Below are positions 2,417 through 24,333 of a stretch of DNA of 33,978 bases, piece after piece. Source of the stretch: Rhodospirillaceae bacterium. Its GTDB lineage: Bacteria; Pseudomonadota; Alphaproteobacteria; TMED109. The stretch covers positions 1 to 33,978 of the forward strand of contig CACMKJ010000007.1 of NCBI GenBank assembly GCA_902614225.1, written 5' to 3'. The notes beneath the pieces were generated by a model. The model was not told the DNA's origin. It ran no database searches and saw only the letters and a program-made list of their open reading frames with translations. The position numbers were made by a program, and so were the translations under genes. Every line of letters begins with the position of its first letter. The stretch's first letter is position 1.

Positions 2417-2647
2417 ATGCGAGTTTTAGATTTTAAAGGTTTAAAATGCCCTATACCTGTACTAAAAGCCTTTAAAATTGTTAAAGAAGAAAAAGAAATT
2501 AACGAATTTACATTTCTAACTGATGATACTTCTGCTCCAAAAGATTTCAGAGACTTTTGTAAAAATACTGGTTTTATTCTTATCAGTATAAATAAAAAAA
2601 ATGACCATCATGAGATTGTAATAAAAAGGCCTAATTCTGGAAAATAG
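2417..2647 (+). CDS. tusA: TusA/SirA-family sulfur carrier protein
   Basis: This 76-residue protein belongs to the TusA/SirA/YedF family. The signature CPIPVLKA begins at the reactive cysteine near residue 11, which carries a persulfide in characterised members. In E. coli TusA feeds 2-thiouridine synthesis and also influences how sulfur is shared with molybdenum-cofactor synthesis. Lying three bases behind moeA, this copy may serve cofactor sulfuration of the dehydrogenase; that is inference from position. The last 17 bases overlap the end of the convergent gene at 2631-3347, so no terminator can lie between them. Family assignment is secure, the specific role is not. Confidence 0.85.
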   Translation: MRVLDFKGLKCPIPVLKAFKIVKEEKEINEFTFLTDDTSAPKDFRDFCKNTGFILISINKKNDHHEIVIKRPNSGK

Positions 2648-3347
2648 CTAAAACCTCAGCTCCTCCTCCAGCAACTGAACCATTAGTAGCTGGCGAAAGT
2701 ACAGATATCGTAAATGTTGTAGTTGAAGGAACACTAGAAATTACATGAAATTTATTAATCTCACTTGCCGCTATACCATCAATAGAATTATCTACATTTG
2801 ATATTTGAACAAACTGTCCTGGAATAGCCCCGTGAACACCAGGTGTAGTTATTTGTAATACTTTTGAACCAGCAGATGTGCTTACAATTGGGTTTGTCCC
2901 TAAAGACATAGTACTTCTAATATTATTATTTACATTTGATTTTGTAGATTCCTGTTGTGTAGAAATAATTTGTGGTGATCTTAAAGCTTCTGCTTCAGCT
3001 CTTGCTTTAATTCTTTTAGTTTTTTCCTCCTCCTGTCTAATAGCTAACCTTCCAGCTTGAGAAAGCTCTCCTTCTTGTATTAATTCATTTATAATTTTAT
3101 CTGTTTTATTAGTAGATATGTATTCACTTCCCTGGGCTTTTTTATTCACTTCATAATTATTACTATAAATATTTATTGGATTGATATTTTCCCTACACAA
3201 AGTTAAAATTTTATTTAGTGATATCTCATTAGAAATAGCTTTTTTAATACATTCATTCAAATTATCAGATCTGAGTAAACTAATGTTAAGAGTATAAAGT
3301 AAACTCAGAATAAAAAGTGATGTCATTCTTATTTTCTTAACTAACAT
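2631..3347 (-). CDS. secreted protein with phage-tail-like C-terminal module, function unknown
   Basis: A 238-residue protein with no function I can name. It begins with a likely signal peptide (hydrophobic stretch at about residues 9-24), possibly initiated at the second methionine, M8. A short Cys-containing region follows (C33, C51), then a charged helical segment rich in E, K, R and A (about 84-122) and an N/S/T-rich linker. Residues about 154-236 form a beta-rich, glycine-rich module containing PGVHGAIPGQFVQISNV, GIAASEINKFHVIS and TFTISV, ending near GSVAGGGAEV. This order (H-G...GD/Q-x-V...GI-A-A-E-x-N...V.S.TTFT...GGG) is familiar from FCCH-like modules of phage tail and virion proteins. 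Its ATG overlaps the stop of the upstream pentapeptide gene, so the two are probably translated together. Confidence 0.7.
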   Translation of the reverse strand: MLVKKIRMTSLFILSLLYTLNISLLRSDNLNECIKKAISNEISLNKILTLCRENINPINIYSNNYEVNKKAQGSEYISTNKTDKIINELIQEGELSQAGRLAIRQEEEKTKRIKARAEAEALRSPQIISTQQESTKSNVNNNIRSTMSLGTNPIVSTSAGSKVLQITTPGVHGAIPGQFVQISNVDNSIDGIAASEINKFHVISSVPSTTTFTISVLSPATNGSVAGGGAEVLAIFQN

Positions 3348-4039
3348 TTTTCTATATCTTCACTCCAAGGAAATATTGTATCACAAGTAATACTATTAAT
3401 AAAATTACCTTTTGTTAAATTAAAGTTAGCAAAATTCATACCAGATACGTTAGTACTCATAAAGTTTACCTCATCTAATTTAGCACTTGTAAAAACCGAA
3501 TTAGTCAAATCTAGAGCAATCATTTCAGCTTCCGTTAAGTCTGCAGCACTAAAATCTGTAAAAAATAAAATACTTCCATTAAACTTTGCTTTTTGAAGAT
3601 CTGAACCTCTAAATTTAGTGTACTTAAGGTTAGCACCGTCTAATATTATTTTGTTTAATTTACTTTTAGACAATACTGTAGAAATTAAAGTTGCATCAAT
3701 TAAATTAGCTCCTTTTAAACTAGCTCCATTTAATCTAGCTTCTGTCAAGTTTGCTCCCTCTAAATTAGCAAAATCTAGGTTAGCTATATAAGCTTTACTT
3801 TTCACTAAAGAAGAATATGATAAATCTGCTTTAAAAAAATTAGTATTAGTTAGATTAGCCAAAGAAAGATTAGATCCTGATAGCAGAGCATTAGAAAGAT
3901 CTAATTTACTTAAATTTGCATTTGCAAGGTCACAATTTTCGCACTTTTTAGTTTTTTTAAGGGTGACTAAATCATTTTCATCATAAGCTCGTAAAAATAA
4001 AGAAAATATTAAACAAAATAAGTAAATTATAAATTTCAT
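3341..4039 (-). CDS. secreted pentapeptide-repeat protein
   Basis: A 232-residue protein with an N-terminal signal peptide (about residues 1-18) and then roughly 30 tandem A(N/D)Lxx-type pentapeptides, such as ANLSKLDLSNA and GANLTEARLNGASL. These should fold into a right-handed quadrilateral beta-helix. A KCENCDL motif opens the repeats and a CDTIFPWSEDIEKC tail closes them; similar Cys-bearing ends occur in exported pentapeptide proteins and suggest disulfide-capped helix ends in the periplasm. Its biochemical role is unknown. The gene starts only 9 bases after the CCA end of tRNA-Lys on the same strand, and its stop overlaps the next gene's start. No other in-frame start would preserve the signal peptide. 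Confidence 0.85.
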   Translation of the reverse strand: MKFIIYLFCLIFSLFLRAYDENDLVTLKKTKKCENCDLANANLSKLDLSNALLSGSNLSLANLTNTNFFKADLSYSSLVKSKAYIANLDFANLEGANLTEARLNGASLKGANLIDATLISTVLSKSKLNKIILDGANLKYTKFRGSDLQKAKFNGSILFFTDFSAADLTEAEMIALDLTNSVFTSAKLDEVNFMSTNVSGMNFANFNLTKGNFINSITCDTIFPWSEDIEKC

Positions 4040-4163: not shown

Positions 4164-5240
4164 TTAAACTTTCAAATTATTCAAATTATTTTTTTTTATA
4201 GCTGATCTAATATTTTTCATCAAGTTACTATAAAAACTTAAATTATGTTGAGTAAGGAAAACACTTCCAAGGATTTCTGAAGATTTCACCAAATGATGTA
4301 GATAAGCCTTCGAGTAATTAGAACAAACCTCACAACTACAATCAGGGTCTAAAGGAGTTTTATCATTAGAATATTTAGAATTTCTAATTTTTATAGTTCC
4401 AACAGAGGTAAATGCTAAACCTGTTCTTCCAGATCTAGTGGGAAGTACACAATCGAACATATCAACACCATGTTTAACTGCATTCAAAATATCTTCAGGA
4501 TATCCTACTCCCATAAGATATCTTGGCTTGTTTTCAGGCAATAAGTTAGATGTAAATGCAGTAATATCATTTAATATATCTTTTCCCTCTCCTACAGCTA
4601 AACCTCCAATTGCATAACCATCAAAATCATGCTCTAAATTTTCTCGTATAGAATTTTCTCTTAAATCTTTATACATTCCACCCTGAACTATACCAAAAAC
4701 ACCATAGCCCTCTCTTCTTTTATATGCTTTTTTTGACCTTTTTGACCATTCCACTGATCTTTTTAAAGATTCTTCTGTGTCGTAATAAGAATATGGGTAT
4801 GGAACACATTCATCAAAAATCATAGATATTGTAGACCCAAGATTATATTGTATATCCATAGCTTTTTCTGCATTTAAACGTATTAGCTCACCATCTATGT
4901 GTGACCTAAAAGTTACACCTTCATTATCTACCTGAACATTATTTCCTAATGACATGACTTGAAAACCGCCTGAGTCAGTTAATATTGATTTATTCCAAGA
5001 CATAAACTTATTTAAACCACCAATATTTTTGATAATTTTCAATCCTGGTCTCAGCATTAAATGGTAAGTATTAGATAAAATTATATCATAGTTTAATTTT
5101 TCTAATGTTTGCTTTGTAATGCCTTTTACTGACGCCAGTGTTCCTACTGGCATAAATACTGGCGTTTCTATTTTTCCATAAAAAGTTTCTAATTCTCCAA
5201 CCCTGGCTTTGCCATCTTGTGACAGTAATTTAAAGTTCAT
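4164..5240 (-). CDS. tgt: queuine/preQ1 tRNA-guanine transglycosylase
   Basis: The enzyme exchanges guanine 34 of tRNAs with GUN anticodons for preQ1, in the queuosine pathway. Visible landmarks are SNTYHLMLRPG, the LTDSGGFQVMSLG segment with the general acid/base Asp, GGLAVGEG, the nucleophile region DMFDCVLPTRSGRTG, and the C-terminal zinc site DCSCEVC with a following HH. Length is 358 residues, slightly short at the C-terminus compared with about 375 in E. coli. I start it at the ATG at 5240 (MNFKLLSQDG), which matches the family; an in-frame ATG at 5267 adds nine unlikely residues inside queA. It overlaps the end of queA by 11 bases, so the two pathway enzymes are coupled. Confidence 0.96.
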   Translation of the reverse strand: MNFKLLSQDGKARVGELETFYGKIETPVFMPVGTLASVKGITKQTLEKLNYDIILSNTYHLMLRPGLKIIKNIGGLNKFMSWNKSILTDSGGFQVMSLGNNVQVDNEGVTFRSHIDGELIRLNAEKAMDIQYNLGSTISMIFDECVPYPYSYYDTEESLKRSVEWSKRSKKAYKRREGYGVFGIVQGGMYKDLRENSIRENLEHDFDGYAIGGLAVGEGKDILNDITAFTSNLLPENKPRYLMGVGYPEDILNAVKHGVDMFDCVLPTRSGRTGLAFTSVGTIKIRNSKYSNDKTPLDPDCSCEVCSNYSKAYLHHLVKSSEILGSVFLTQHNLSFYSNLMKNIRSAIKKNNLNNLKV

Positions 5241-6252
5241 ATTTATCCAATAGCATTGCATCTCCAAAACTAAAAAATTTCATCTTACTTTCTATAGCAA
5301 AGTCATAAAATTCTTTTATTTTATTTTTTGTTGAGAATGAAGAAACTAGAATTAATAAACTTGATTTAGGTAAATGAAAGTTAGTAATTAACTTATCTAT
5401 GACTTTAAACTTATATCCAGGATAAATAAATAAATCAATGTCCTCATTAAAATTTTTTATAGTTTTATATTTAGAGTAGCATGCCTCTAATAAACGTACT
5501 ACCGTTGTACCTACAGCAACTATTCTTTTTTTTTTAGATATGGCTATATTAATTTTTTTTGCAGCCTCAATACTAATGATACCTCTTTCTTTGTGAAGAG
5601 TATTTTTTTTAATGTTTTCATTTTTTAATGGTAAAAAGGTACCTGCTCCTACATGTAAGGTAGTAAAAATTGTATCGATGTTTCTTATTTTAAAATTTTG
5701 CATTAAATTTTTATTAAAATGTAATCCAGCTGTAGGACTTGCAACTGCACCAACATTTTTAGCAAATACAGTTTGATAATATTTTTCATCTAATTCTCTA
5801 TTAGAATGAGATTTAATATACGGAGGCAAAGGCAAATTTCCAAATTTATTTAAATAGTTTATCACTGCTTCATATTTTTGATTAAACCTTACTTCTACTA
5901 TTACAGAATCTTTCTTTATTAATTTACAAGACAAACCATTTTTAAAATTTATAACTTCATTAAGCTTTACTTTTTTTGCTGGCTTTATAAAAACTTTCCA
6001 AAAATATGTTTGATAGTTTTTTAATAATGTAAATTTAACCTGATTACCGTTACAAACCCCTTCTATAACGGATGGTAAAACCTTTGTATTATTAAATATT
6101 AAAACATCATCTTTATCTAATTCATTAAATATATCATTAAAATTAATTATTTTTTTTTTATTACAAATCAAAATTTTTGATTCTCTTCCATTTGTAGGTC
6201 TTTTTGCAATTAAATTCTTAGGTAAAGAATAATTAAAGTCTTCTAAATACAT
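5230..6252 (-). CDS. queA: S-adenosylmethionine:tRNA ribosyltransferase-isomerase QueA
   Basis: This enzyme converts preQ1 in tRNA to epoxyqueuosine by transferring and rearranging the ribosyl part of SAM. It is 340 residues, the normal length. Landmarks are FNNTKVLPSVIEG near residue 52, GAVASPTAGLHF near 168, TLHVGAGTFLPL, VAVGTTVVRLLEA, and the C-terminal YPGYKFKVIDKLITNFHLPKS. The gene sits 8 bases downstream of coaD and overlaps tgt. Lysine-rich stretches are coded by T runs on the plus strand (for example ten T at 5526-5535), in keeping with the AT bias. The preQ1 synthesis genes are not in this window, so the base could be made elsewhere in the genome or salvaged. Confidence 0.96.
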   Translation of the reverse strand: MYLEDFNYSLPKNLIAKRPTNGRESKILICNKKKIINFNDIFNELDKDDVLIFNNTKVLPSVIEGVCNGNQVKFTLLKNYQTYFWKVFIKPAKKVKLNEVINFKNGLSCKLIKKDSVIVEVRFNQKYEAVINYLNKFGNLPLPPYIKSHSNRELDEKYYQTVFAKNVGAVASPTAGLHFNKNLMQNFKIRNIDTIFTTLHVGAGTFLPLKNENIKKNTLHKERGIISIEAAKKINIAISKKKRIVAVGTTVVRLLEACYSKYKTIKNFNEDIDLFIYPGYKFKVIDKLITNFHLPKSSLLILVSSFSTKNKIKEFYDFAIESKMKFFSFGDAMLLDKYEL

Positions 6253-16875: not shown

Positions 16876-17760
16876 TTAAGGTTTTTTTAAAAATTTCATT
16901 GGATCTAGTGGTTTAGAGTTTTTTCTAACCTGAAAATGAAGTTGGCTTTTATCCACATTACCTGTAGCTCCTACAGAGGCAATGATATCTCCTGTTTTAA
17001 TAATTTCACCTTTTTTAACAAGTAACTTATCTAAATGAGCATACGCTGTTGTCCAATTATTTTTGTGCTTTATAATAATTAAATTTCCCCATGCTAATAA
17101 TTCATTGCCCCTATAAATCACTTTACCAGTCATTGCTGCTCTTACAGGATTCCCTTTAACTGATATAATATTAATTCCATCATTTTTTCTGCCTCCTTTT
17201 TGTTTTCCAAAATAAGTAATTATACTACCTTTTACTGGCCAAATAAAAATTTCTTTAGATTTTATTGACTTTTTTATGGATCTATTCTTTTTAGCAATCT
17301 TTTTACTTATTAGCTTGCAATTATCTATGGAGTAGTAAGGTAAATTTATTACCGAACCTACTATCAACTTTTTTTCATTTAAATTAGTGTTTTTATTTTT
17401 AATCTCTAAAACATTAGTGGCACTACACTTAGCTATTTTATATAATGTATCACCTTTTTTAATTTTATATCTTTTCGAGACTGGGATTTTAATAAACTTT
17501 CCAGGTTTTAATATATAAGGATATTTAATTTTGTTAAATCTTATTAGCTCTTTTTTCGTCACTTTATATTTTTTGGATATAGAATCTAATGTGTCACCAG
17601 TTACTATTTTAATTTTTTTGCTTTTAGTTTCTTCTTTGATTTTGCTACTATCGTAAATTCCCTTTACTACATCTGTTACTATTGGTCCCTTCCCGCAGTT
17701 ACTCAAAAGCAATGATAAGAAAGAAAAAATAAATAAATAGAAAAAAATTGTTTTTTTCAT
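16876..17760 (-). CDS. nlpD: NlpD-like LysM/LytM lipoprotein, probable amidase activator
   Basis: A 294-residue outer-membrane-type lipoprotein. A signal peptide ends in the lipobox LLSNC, with lipidated Cys22. Two LysM domains follow (about 50-94 and 98-142) for peptidoglycan binding, then a LytM/M23 domain (about 172-290). The metallopeptidase residues are replaced: the HxGxD motif is N193-D-G-I-N197 and the HxH motif is Q273-L-H275. The fold is kept (GNLIIIKH, TTAYAHLD, VGATGN). This is the pattern of E. coli NlpD, which activates amidase AmiC at division rather than cutting the wall itself. The start overlaps the end of the Pcm-like gene by 4 bases (ATGA), giving the classic surE-pcm-nlpD arrangement. 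Confidence 0.9.
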   Translation of the reverse strand: MKKTIFFYLFIFSFLSLLLSNCGKGPIVTDVVKGIYDSSKIKEETKSKKIKIVTGDTLDSISKKYKVTKKELIRFNKIKYPYILKPGKFIKIPVSKRYKIKKGDTLYKIAKCSATNVLEIKNKNTNLNEKKLIVGSVINLPYYSIDNCKLISKKIAKKNRSIKKSIKSKEIFIWPVKGSIITYFGKQKGGRKNDGINIISVKGNPVRAAMTGKVIYRGNELLAWGNLIIIKHKNNWTTAYAHLDKLLVKKGEIIKTGDIIASVGATGNVDKSQLHFQVRKNSKPLDPMKFLKKP

Positions 17761-18362
17761 ATCAAATCACTATTAATTAATAAATCACAGTTACAATTTT
17801 GATTAGCTTTAAGATTTGCTTTATCTATTCTTATCATACTAATTTTGTTATTTGCACTGATACTTGGAAAAATACCCTTACCCTTAATAGATAATTGGCT
17901 AATTATGTCAGTAATTGAAAAATCATTTTTTTTAAATATAAAAATTAAATCAAAAGGAGCTACTCTACTCCATGAAAGAATATTTTCTCCACAGCATAAG
18001 TAAATATTTTTAAAATTATTATTTAAAAAAAATTGTTCTAATTTCTTTTTATGTTCCATACTATGACATATTCCATAAACACGTTTACAAAAATTTGTTA
18101 ACAATAACAGCAACCAACCACTTTTAAATCCTAATAATAAAATATTTTCATTTTTATAATTTTCTTTCAAACTTAATTGTAAAAGTTTTGCTATTTCTAA
18201 AACTTCATCAATATTAATTTTTTTCAAATCCTTGCTAGAATTAAAAAGATTATAATAAAAATGTGGAGGTACTTTTTCTATAGCTCCTAAAATTTTATCA
18301 CTTTTAATACCTATACTTCTTAATTTTAATAATATTTGAATTAAATACTCTTTATTATTCAA
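17757..18362 (-). CDS. degenerate protein-L-isoaspartate methyltransferase (Pcm-like)
   Basis: The position between surE and nlpD and the N-terminal pattern (LRSIGIKSDKILGAIEKVPPHFY) place this 201-residue protein in the Pcm family, which repairs isoaspartyl residues using SAM. It is strongly altered. The substrate region that normally reads GQTIS..P is not recognisable, and the SAM loop, normally EIGTGSGY, reads LLLGFKSGWL near residues 75-84. Later strands (KRVYGICHSMEH, PFDLIFIF, KGKGIFPSI) still fit a Rossmann methyltransferase. The reading frame is intact and overlaps both neighbours by a few bases, so it is probably translated. It may have lost or changed activity. Family assignment is moderately confident. 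Confidence 0.68.
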   Translation of the reverse strand: MNNKEYLIQILLKLRSIGIKSDKILGAIEKVPPHFYYNLFNSSKDLKKINIDEVLEIAKLLQLSLKENYKNENILLLGFKSGWLLLLLTNFCKRVYGICHSMEHKKKLEQFFLNNNFKNIYLCCGENILSWSRVAPFDLIFIFKKNDFSITDIISQLSIKGKGIFPSISANNKISMIRIDKANLKANQNCNCDLLINSDLI

Positions 18363-21652: not shown

Positions 21653-22699
21653 TTATTCTTGAAAAATAAATATATCTTTCTTACTAGCATTTACCCTAAT
21701 ATACTGATTTTTTTTAAGCTCTCTTTTACAGTTTGTAATATTTAATATTGGAAATTTTGCTCCTAAGTCTAATTGATAAGCCCAACTGGCCCCTAAAAAG
21801 TATTTGTTTATAACTTTTGCTTTAACTCCTTTTTTGCTAATAATTATGTTTTCTGGTCTTATTATACAAAAATGTTTTTTTTGTTGGCAAAATTTATTTA
21901 TACTTCTGCATTTATTACAACTTACACTACCAAAGGGTGTAAATAATTTACCTTTAGCATCTGCCTCTATTTCAAACTGATTGGTTGATCCTAACATATT
22001 TGCAACACATTTATTGATAGGACTGTTATAAAGTTTTTTAGGCGAGTCAATTTGAAGAATTTTTCCTTTTTTTATAACTATAATTCTATCACTGACACTC
22101 ATTGCCTCTTCAACATCATGTGTCACAAAAATTACTGGTATGTTATTTTTTTTTAAGGTTTCTAAAGTATAATTGCATATTTCTTTTTTAAGATTAATAT
22201 CTAAGTTTGAAAATGGTTCATCCATAAGCAATGCCTTGGGCTTTGTTATTAAGACTCTTGCAAGTGCCACTCTTTGTTTCTCTCCACCTGATAAAGAATT
22301 GGGAAAGTTATTTTTCTTTTCAAGCAGACTAAATTCTTTTAAGTAATGTAAAACTTTTTTTTCTTTTTCTTTAAAAGAAGTCCGTTCTAATCCAAATGCA
22401 ATATTTTTAAATACTGTTAAGTGAGGAAATAATACATCTTCCTGAAACATAAGTGCTATGTTTCTCTGTCCAGTAGGAACAATACTTTTGTTTGAAGAAA
22501 TTAATTTATTAGAAAAATAAACATAACCTTCAGAAGGCTTTATCAAACCTGCAATAATTCTAAGAATACTTGATTTTCCTGCTCCAGATGGCCCTAATAT
22601 TGAAACAACTTCTTTTTTATTTAACGAAAAAGTAATATCTTTTATTATACTCAAATTATTTAATGTCAATGATACTTTTTCTAAATTAATTATACTCAT
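21653..22699 (-). CDS. fbpC: ferric-iron-type ABC transporter ATP-binding protein with extra Cys cluster
   Basis: A 348-residue ABC ATPase of the FbpC/CysA/PotA superfamily that would power import by the permease just upstream. Walker A is GPSGAGKS at 36-43, signature LSGGEKQRVALAR at 136-148, Walker B ALLMDEP near 156-162, and the switch His in VTHDVEEAM near 194. The C-terminal regulatory (TOBE-like) region contains four closely spaced cysteines: C261, C264, C271 and C278 (C-x2-C-x6-C-x6-C), just before IRPENI. These could bind iron, zinc or an Fe-S cluster and sense metal status, which is inference. The start overlaps the permease stop (TAATG). The substrate is inferred from the permease. 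Confidence 0.88.
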   Translation of the reverse strand: MSIINLEKVSLTLNNLSIIKDITFSLNKKEVVSILGPSGAGKSSILRIIAGLIKPSEGYVYFSNKLISSNKSIVPTGQRNIALMFQEDVLFPHLTVFKNIAFGLERTSFKEKEKKVLHYLKEFSLLEKKNNFPNSLSGGEKQRVALARVLITKPKALLMDEPFSNLDINLKKEICNYTLETLKKNNIPVIFVTHDVEEAMSVSDRIIVIKKGKILQIDSPKKLYNSPINKCVANMLGSTNQFEIEADAKGKLFTPFGSVSCNKCRSINKFCQQKKHFCIIRPENIIISKKGVKAKVINKYFLGASWAYQLDLGAKFPILNITNCKRELKKNQYIRVNASKKDIFIFQE

Positions 22700-24333
22700 T
22701 AGTTTCCTTCTTTATAATTAAGTATTTTATATATAAAAAGTAATGGGAAAAGCCCAATTATAGTTATTAAGAGTGCTGGCAAAGCAGCCTGAGCAAGCTG
22801 TTCTGAGCTTGCGTACTCATAGGTTAATACAGATAAAGTATTGTAATTAAAAGGTCTTAAAATTAAGGTTATTGGCAACTCTTTTAAAATGTCAATGAAT
22901 ATAAGTAAAAAAGCAATTAAGCAAGAACTAATTATCATAGGTAAATGGATTTTAAACAATAATGTTTGTTTATTGGCCCCTAAATTTAAAGCAGAGTAGT
23001 CTATTTTTTCACTAACTTTTTCTAAACCAGACTCAATAGGATTAAATGCAACTGATAAAAATCTAACCAAATAAGCAAAAATTAAAATTGTAATTGATCC
23101 ACTTAAAATTAATCCAATATCTTTTCCAAAATAAGAAAAAAATTGGCTTATTTGTTTATCAAGAAATATTGAAGGAGAAATTACTCCAATTGCAATAACA
23201 ATTCCTGGTGCAGCATACCCAATCTTAGAAAAGTTTATAATAAAAGAGAGTATATTAATTTTAAAAACACGCTTAGTAAAAATAATAAATGTAGCAAAAG
23301 AAATTATTACAAATGCACCTATAAATGCAACTTTAAAACTATTAAAAGTTGCATAGAAAACTGTATTTACACTATTAAATGACTCCAAGCTGACATTAGT
23401 AATTAACCATAAAATTGGAACAATTAATGATAAAAATATAATTATAAATAGAAAAAAAACAGGAAAAGTTATTTTAGAATTAAACAAAGAATTAACATCT
23501 GTATGTTGTCCTAAAGTAGTATAATTTTCTTTTTTATTTCTTCTTAGGTATTTTTCAATCAAAATTACACTTAATGTAAAAATTAATAAAACTGCTGAAA
23601 GTCTCGCAGAGCTTTGCAAGTCATCAAAACCAAACCATGCTTTGTAAATACCTACAGATAATGTATTAATACCAAGGTAACTTGCTACTCCAAAATCAGC
23701 AAGTGTCTCCATTATAACTAAAGTTATACTGGCTACTAAAGCTGGTCTTGATATAGGCAAAGCAAAATTAAAAAAAAGTTTTATTTTTGATACTCCAAGG
23801 TTAGCTGCTGATTCAATAATTTTAAGCGCATTATATTGAAAAGAATATTTTAATATTAAAAAAATATATGGAAACAAAGTTAATGATAAAACAAAAATGC
23901 ATCCCATTAAAGATCTTACATTGAGCATTGATAAATAGGACTCTCCTAAATTTATACCAGATAAAACACTATCTATACTTCCACCTTTATCAGTAATAGC
24001 TGCATAGCAATAAGCCACAGCATATGAGGGTATCGCGATTGGTAATACTAAAAGAGTAGATATTAATTTTTTAAAAGGTAAATCATAAAAAACTAAGAAC
24101 CAAGCTGCTAGTACACCTATAAATAAAGTTAATGCTAATACACCTATTACTAAAAATAACGAATTTAATACATAAGAGGCAATTAAATAATTATAAATAT
24201 GAGCCCATACTTCATTATTTACTTTAAAAGACGAAAAAAAAATTACTAATATCGGGGTTGATACAATTATTGCAAAAAAAAGCGTCCCCAATAACCAAAA
24301 ATTAAAAAAATTGTTTTCTTTTTTTATTATAAT
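22699..24333 (-). CDS. fbpB: ferric-iron-type ABC transporter permease (FbpB), probable AUU start
   Basis: A fused double-permease protein with about twelve membrane segments and two EAA loops (ESAANLGVSKIKLFFNFALP and DYSALNLGANKQTLLFKIHLP). LVIMETLADFGVASYLGI and ELPITLILRPFNYNTLSVLTYEYA are close to iron permeases of the FbpB/SfuB kind. The first conventional start is TTG at 24291, but that would begin inside the first membrane helix. In the same frame a strong AAAGGAG at 24347-24341 is followed after 7 bases by AUU at 24333, giving an N-terminus IIKKENNFFNFWLLGT with a cationic lead and a full helix. I therefore extend the gene to 24333 (544 residues). No periplasmic binding protein gene is nearby. 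Confidence 0.85.
   Translation of the reverse strand: MIIKKENNFFNFWLLGTLFFAIIVSTPILVIFFSSFKVNNEVWAHIYNYLIASYVLNSLFLVIGVLALTLFIGVLAAWFLVFYDLPFKKLISTLLVLPIAIPSYAVAYCYAAITDKGGSIDSVLSGINLGESYLSMLNVRSLMGCIFVLSLTLFPYIFLILKYSFQYNALKIIESAANLGVSKIKLFFNFALPISRPALVASITLVIMETLADFGVASYLGINTLSVGIYKAWFGFDDLQSSARLSAVLLIFTLSVILIEKYLRRNKKENYTTLGQHTDVNSLFNSKITFPVFFLFIIIFLSLIVPILWLITNVSLESFNSVNTVFYATFNSFKVAFIGAFVIISFATFIIFTKRVFKINILSFIINFSKIGYAAPGIVIAIGVISPSIFLDKQISQFFSYFGKDIGLILSGSITILIFAYLVRFLSVAFNPIESGLEKVSEKIDYSALNLGANKQTLLFKIHLPMIISSCLIAFLLIFIDILKELPITLILRPFNYNTLSVLTYEYASSEQLAQAALPALLITIIGLFPLLFIYKILNYKEGN

Follow-up and report, generated by a model that had tools for sequence, protein, structure and literature searches.

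A small exported-type protein carrying a single FCCH-like module, homologous to phage virion modules, in three related genera of uncultured small-genome bacteria

How a module of the kind found in phage virion proteins came to stand at the end of a small, apparently exported protein encoded among housekeeping genes, and what it might do there, is the question raised by the open reading frame at positions 2631..3347 on the minus strand of the window, i.e., the whole stretch of 33,978 nucleotides analysed here, which forms a single contig within an assembly of 1.06 Mb and 55% completeness. The initial annotation described the product as an exported protein composed of a signal peptide, a charged helical stretch and a phage-tail-like module, and proposed that a virion building block had been recruited by the cell, perhaps for binding, decoy or assembly.

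The reading frame encodes 238 amino acids from an ATG start (stop codon included in the coordinates) and is supported as a gene by its orthologues and by purifying selection; the presence of a second in-frame methionine at residue 8 makes the exact start uncertain. A hydrophobic peak of 12 residues was observed by hydropathy at the N-terminus of every orthologue, in agreement with the signal peptide claimed before, and residues 1-27 (3267..3347, on the minus strand like all parts of the protein) constitute a probable signal peptide, the putative cleavage site of which, just before DN/EN, was read by eye. Judged from this hydrophobic N-terminus, the protein is probably exported by the Sec pathway. 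The subsequent helical pair (residues 28-60; 3168..3266) was defined by invariant columns in the orthologue alignment A1 and contains Cys33 and Cys51, a candidate disulphide pair, while helices over residues 28-39 and 44-52 were predicted with low confidence. The charged helical stretch was indeed recovered from A1 and the structural model as a region of residues 77-128 (2964..3119), with an AlphaFold2 pLDDT of about 80 across roughly residues 81-122. Throughout the helical residues 28-128, both cysteines are invariant in A1, the block EKTKRIKARAEAEALRSPQII of the charged region is near-invariant, and further strictly invariant blocks are found. A variable linker of residues 129-142 (2922..2963), recognized by gaps and variation in A1 and by a pLDDT mostly <50, leads to the C-terminal FCCH/endosialidase-type beta-barrel module of residues 143-238 (2634..2921), which is delimited by BLAST, profiles and the predicted fold. 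Its C-terminal position had been correctly given, but its start lies nearer residue 143 than residue 150. The strings HGAIPGQFVQISNV, GIAASEINKFHVIS, TTFTISV and GGGAEV were all found in the product of 2631-3347(-).

As a whole, the protein gave marginal matches only in searches with Pfam, NCBIfam, PADLOC and phmmer, and no convincing family was found for it in Pfam, PHROGs or NCBIfam. The single PADLOC match was a weak one to the DruE model (E 0.0086, 11.5 bits), covering residues 39-156 and thus mostly the helical part. A profile of the helical part, searched against 385 genomes of the class, detected no relative outside the clade, the matches being the window itself and one match whose E value of 0.0065 is at chance level because 385 genomes were searched; the latter concerns the N-terminal helix at a locus with two tandem pentapeptide proteins (L149, genome G029), which weakly resembles the helical part. 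Predicted alone, the helical part reached a mean pLDDT of 59, too low for a fold search. Promoter and terminator scans gave signals no better than those of shuffled sequences.

When the module alone (87 aa) was used as the query, 45% identity (E 1e-6) to a virion protein of Roseobacter phage CRP-901 was detected, together with a match in CRP-902 and weaker matches among cyanophage structural proteins. In tblastn searches against phages at E up to 1, the module retrieved 66 records (best 1e-6) and the reversed sequence one (E 0.7). A viral profile constructed from 25 phage modules, with the window left out, matched the window module (E 6.3e-11) and nothing else in the window's genome. Moreover, the real module scored 43.2 bits against the phage-only profile, compared with 14.6 bits for the best of 5000 shuffles, and hhalign, run with the orthologue modules against the viral ones, gave a probability of 98.3 and E 1.5e-14. 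The PHROG family phrog_358 of T4-like marine phages also matches the module (41% identity, E 1.8e-5). Homology of the C-terminal module to phage virion modules could thus be demonstrated at the sequence level by BLAST, profile and profile-profile comparison. The relationship to virion proteins first noticed in the sequence is therefore borne out by tblastn, the phage-only profile, hhalign and the fold, and the profile search that had been suggested for phage structural similarity returned phrog_358. Searched alone against Pfam, the window module gave no match up to E 1, so that its membership of the superfamily is founded on intermediate sequences and structure. Against the PDB, profile A2 matched the endosialidase 4hiz (1e-5) and the UBA1 FCCH domain 2lzj (0.003), and the phage-only profile A3 matched 4hiz at E 0.001. 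In a module tree of 85 columns, the orthologues form one group (94/97), and the donor lineage was not recovered; no relative was found among viral contigs either, whether the window module or the full-length profile served as the query.

The AlphaFold2 model has a pLDDT of about 90 over residues 150-238 and low confidence across much of the N-terminal part. In the structural ranking of the modelled module by VIA-align, endosialidase barrels came first (4hiz at Z 11.7, with 2.0 A across 85 residues, then 1v0e at Z 10.6) and E1 FCCH domains second (Z up to 9.2, UBA6), and the Foldseek ranks agreed, with viral proteins matched in BFVD at 1.5e-7. The module is accordingly predicted to adopt the beta-barrel fold shared by endosialidases and the FCCH domain of ubiquitin E1, and not an ordinary beta-sandwich; since viral modules were part of the alignment behind the model, the fold and the homology are not fully independent lines of evidence.

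Among known systems, the phage endosialidase beta-barrel (PF12195; 4hiz, 1v0e, 3ju4) is the best structural match (2.0 A, 83-85 residues) and shares with the window module the core pattern HG..GD.V..S. Unlike the endosialidase tailspikes, the window protein is a single barrel on an exported-type helical protein of 238 aa, devoid of the beta-propeller sialidase, stalk, spike and C-terminal chaperone domain of those proteins. The FCCH domain of ubiquitin-activating E1 (PF16190; 2lzj, 4p22, 6dc6) has the same barrel, as judged from profile and structural matches (Z about 8-9), but belongs to an intracellular eukaryotic enzyme with no known functional link to the window protein. The closest sequence matches of the module, the phrog_3287 virion protein of CRP-901 and CRP-902 and the phrog_358 protein, are large virion proteins without the helical part.

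The module family also has cellular carriers outside the cytoplasm, namely FlgK, FlgE, TadG-like, PilY1-like, DUF1217 and RTX-type proteins, in which the module is inserted or in tandem within a large known protein, whereas in the window it stands at the C-terminus of a small protein. FCCH-like inserts occur in flagellar FlgK (two genomes) and the hook protein FlgE at L150 and L168 of genome G328 and L047 of G136, in TadG/VWA-type pilus-associated proteins (L049, L050, L052, L058 and L153), and in an RTX-type protein; E1_FCCH exceeds the Pfam cut-off in L050. Several tandem modules are present in PilY1-like proteins (L155 of G438 and L157 of G504). The names were assigned by Pfam for FlgK of G328, FlgE, Tad and DUF1217, and by sequence reading for FlgK of G136, PilY1, RTX and FliL. 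Judged from the sequences of its carriers, the family is an extracellular module common to virions and bacterial appendages.

Nine genomes, the window's among them, carry full-length orthologues with 55-91% identity; they belong to three related genera, namely g1 (which includes the window's genome) and g6 with four genomes each, and g3 with a single genome that has two near-identical copies. The gene order, compared in the window and six relatives, is gyrA-coaD-queA-tgt, then the FCCH-module gene, then the convergent tusA-moeA-mobB, where gyrA, coaD, queA and tgt were named from sequence. On the upstream side, the flank with tgt (4164..5267, minus strand) is conserved in the locus comparison. 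The convergent TusA-like gene (2417..2647, plus strand), with moeA and mobB further out, shares 17 nt with the FCCH-module gene at their 3' ends in the window, and this downstream flank is kept in most relatives; in genome G001, tgt and the pentapeptide gene stand on one flank, and the opposite flank has a different ORF pattern. The upstream gene for a pentapeptide-repeat protein with an export-type N-terminus (3341..4039, minus strand) overlaps the start of the FCCH-module gene by 7 nt in the window. It lies between tgt and the FCCH-module gene in g1 and g3 and is absent there in g6, so that the conservation beside the pentapeptide gene asked about in the initial annotation holds for the former two genera, not for g6. 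Close relatives of the window pentapeptide protein occupy this site in both g1 and g3, and remoter ones are encoded at other loci in g2, g4, g5 and g7. The FCCH-module gene was found in 0/6 genomes of g2, g4 and g5, neither beside tgt, which is present, nor elsewhere, and one acquisition in the common ancestor of g1, g3 and g6 would be the simplest reading. Strong Pfam matches were obtained for 21 other window genes, all of them housekeeping or envelope genes, with 0 phage genes, which confirms for the Pfam-assigned neighbours the picture of a single module in a housekeeping neighbourhood; ORFs 17757-18362 and 22699-24291 have no strong Pfam match. Secretin PF00263, a pointer to pilus or type II systems, occurs only in one congener and two g8 genomes and does not correlate with the gene.

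Outside the signal peptide, pairwise dN is well under dS across the orthologues. Between the window and L003, for instance, dN is 0.031 versus a dS of 0.249 for the module and 0.045 versus 0.201 for the helical part. The dN values range over 0-0.14 for the module and 0.02-0.26 for the helical part, and in most pairs the module is the slowest-evolving segment. These values point to a maintained function.

The reading that we favour, with slightly better than an even chance of being right, is that of an exported envelope or surface protein in which the helices oligomerise or anchor and the single barrel binds a ligand. The protein would be exported via Sec to the cell envelope or surface, where the helical part at the N-terminus, which contains a long charged helix and probably one disulphide, would oligomerise it or hold it in the envelope, and the C-terminal barrel would bind a surface glycan or partner protein, as proposed for its phage virion counterparts. 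A binding role is suggested by analogy with the K1F tailspike barrel, which harbours one of three polysialic-acid sites in structures and is a host-discrimination hotspot (PMC12632334), and by the inclusion of End_beta_barrel among Pfam domains listed as related to receptor binding (PMC9230537). The cellular carriers that could be named are surface structures (FlgK, FlgE, TadG-like, PilY1-like and RTX-type). Because most module carriers have no known binding function, the barrel may be a mere spacer, and it is a real, if minor, possibility that it serves as a stability or spacing element without specific ligand while the helical part does the work. The inserts and tandems in flagellar and pilus carriers would suit such a role, as would the strictly invariant blocks in the helical part too, but most pairs show stronger conservation in the module than in any other segment, beyond the need of a mere spacer. 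Somewhat more doubtful is an envelope complex with the adjacent exported pentapeptide-repeat protein, which would be compatible with ligand binding by the barrel; the adjacency in g1 and g3, the overlap in the window and the chance-level resemblance of the helical profile to the helix of a pentapeptide protein elsewhere speak for it, yet the partner cannot be obligatory, since the g6 genomes keep the FCCH-module gene without any pentapeptide homologue at E 1e-6.

Phage-to-cell transfer of the module is plausible, but the occurrence of the module in cellular appendage proteins means that it may have come from a different cellular protein. Of the recruitment proposed at the outset, the phage-type module on an exported-type protein stands, whereas the recruitment itself is no more than plausible, given the appendage carriers and a tree in which the donor was not recovered. 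It appears unlikely that these bacteria took a virion barrel into their chromosome and kept it as a stand-alone exported protein governing contact with phages or other cells, which would make it a domesticated module for phage adhesion. A T4-like phage contig in a same-genus assembly (L061, G005:C30:9000-20000), a candidate phage of this genus, encodes a 2031-aa structural protein (phrog_358) that carries the module, and the IMG/VR contig L103 is 99% identical across this phage region. Its module would accord with a decoy role, in which the exported module mimics the virion module and blocks adsorption of the phage using it, in the manner of superinfection exclusion. This role is nevertheless quite improbable: the L103 module is only 30% identical to that of the window, no diversifying selection was seen in a module that is among the slowest-evolving parts, the DruE match is not a convincing defence family, and the neighbouring genes are not defence genes. 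The homology to virion proteins could also be taken to indicate that the gene is left over from a prophage or gene transfer agent, which is very improbable given the lack of phage genes among the Pfam-assigned neighbours, the same housekeeping site in three genera with low dN/dS, and a full-length profile that matches no viral contig. GTA_TIM (PF13547) was found in 0/28 family genomes with a positive Caulobacter control, the window's genome being 55% complete.

Although the barrel is known to Pfam, the protein with its clade-specific single-module architecture appears undescribed, and no relevant paper joining FCCH with phage tails, pili or endosialidase was found by title or abstract. With this protein, a module family of virions, flagella and pili gains a small single-module member, which is conserved in uncultured bacteria with small genomes that are related to marine single-cell genomes; its small size makes the ligand question approachable with one purified domain. 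The same barrel in FlgK, FlgE, Tad and PilY1-like proteins suggests module exchange between phages and bacterial appendages. Six FCCH-like modules were further observed in a DUF1217 protein of 1420 aa (L060, 2747-7009), encoded beside a FliL-like gene in an assembly with 6% contamination.
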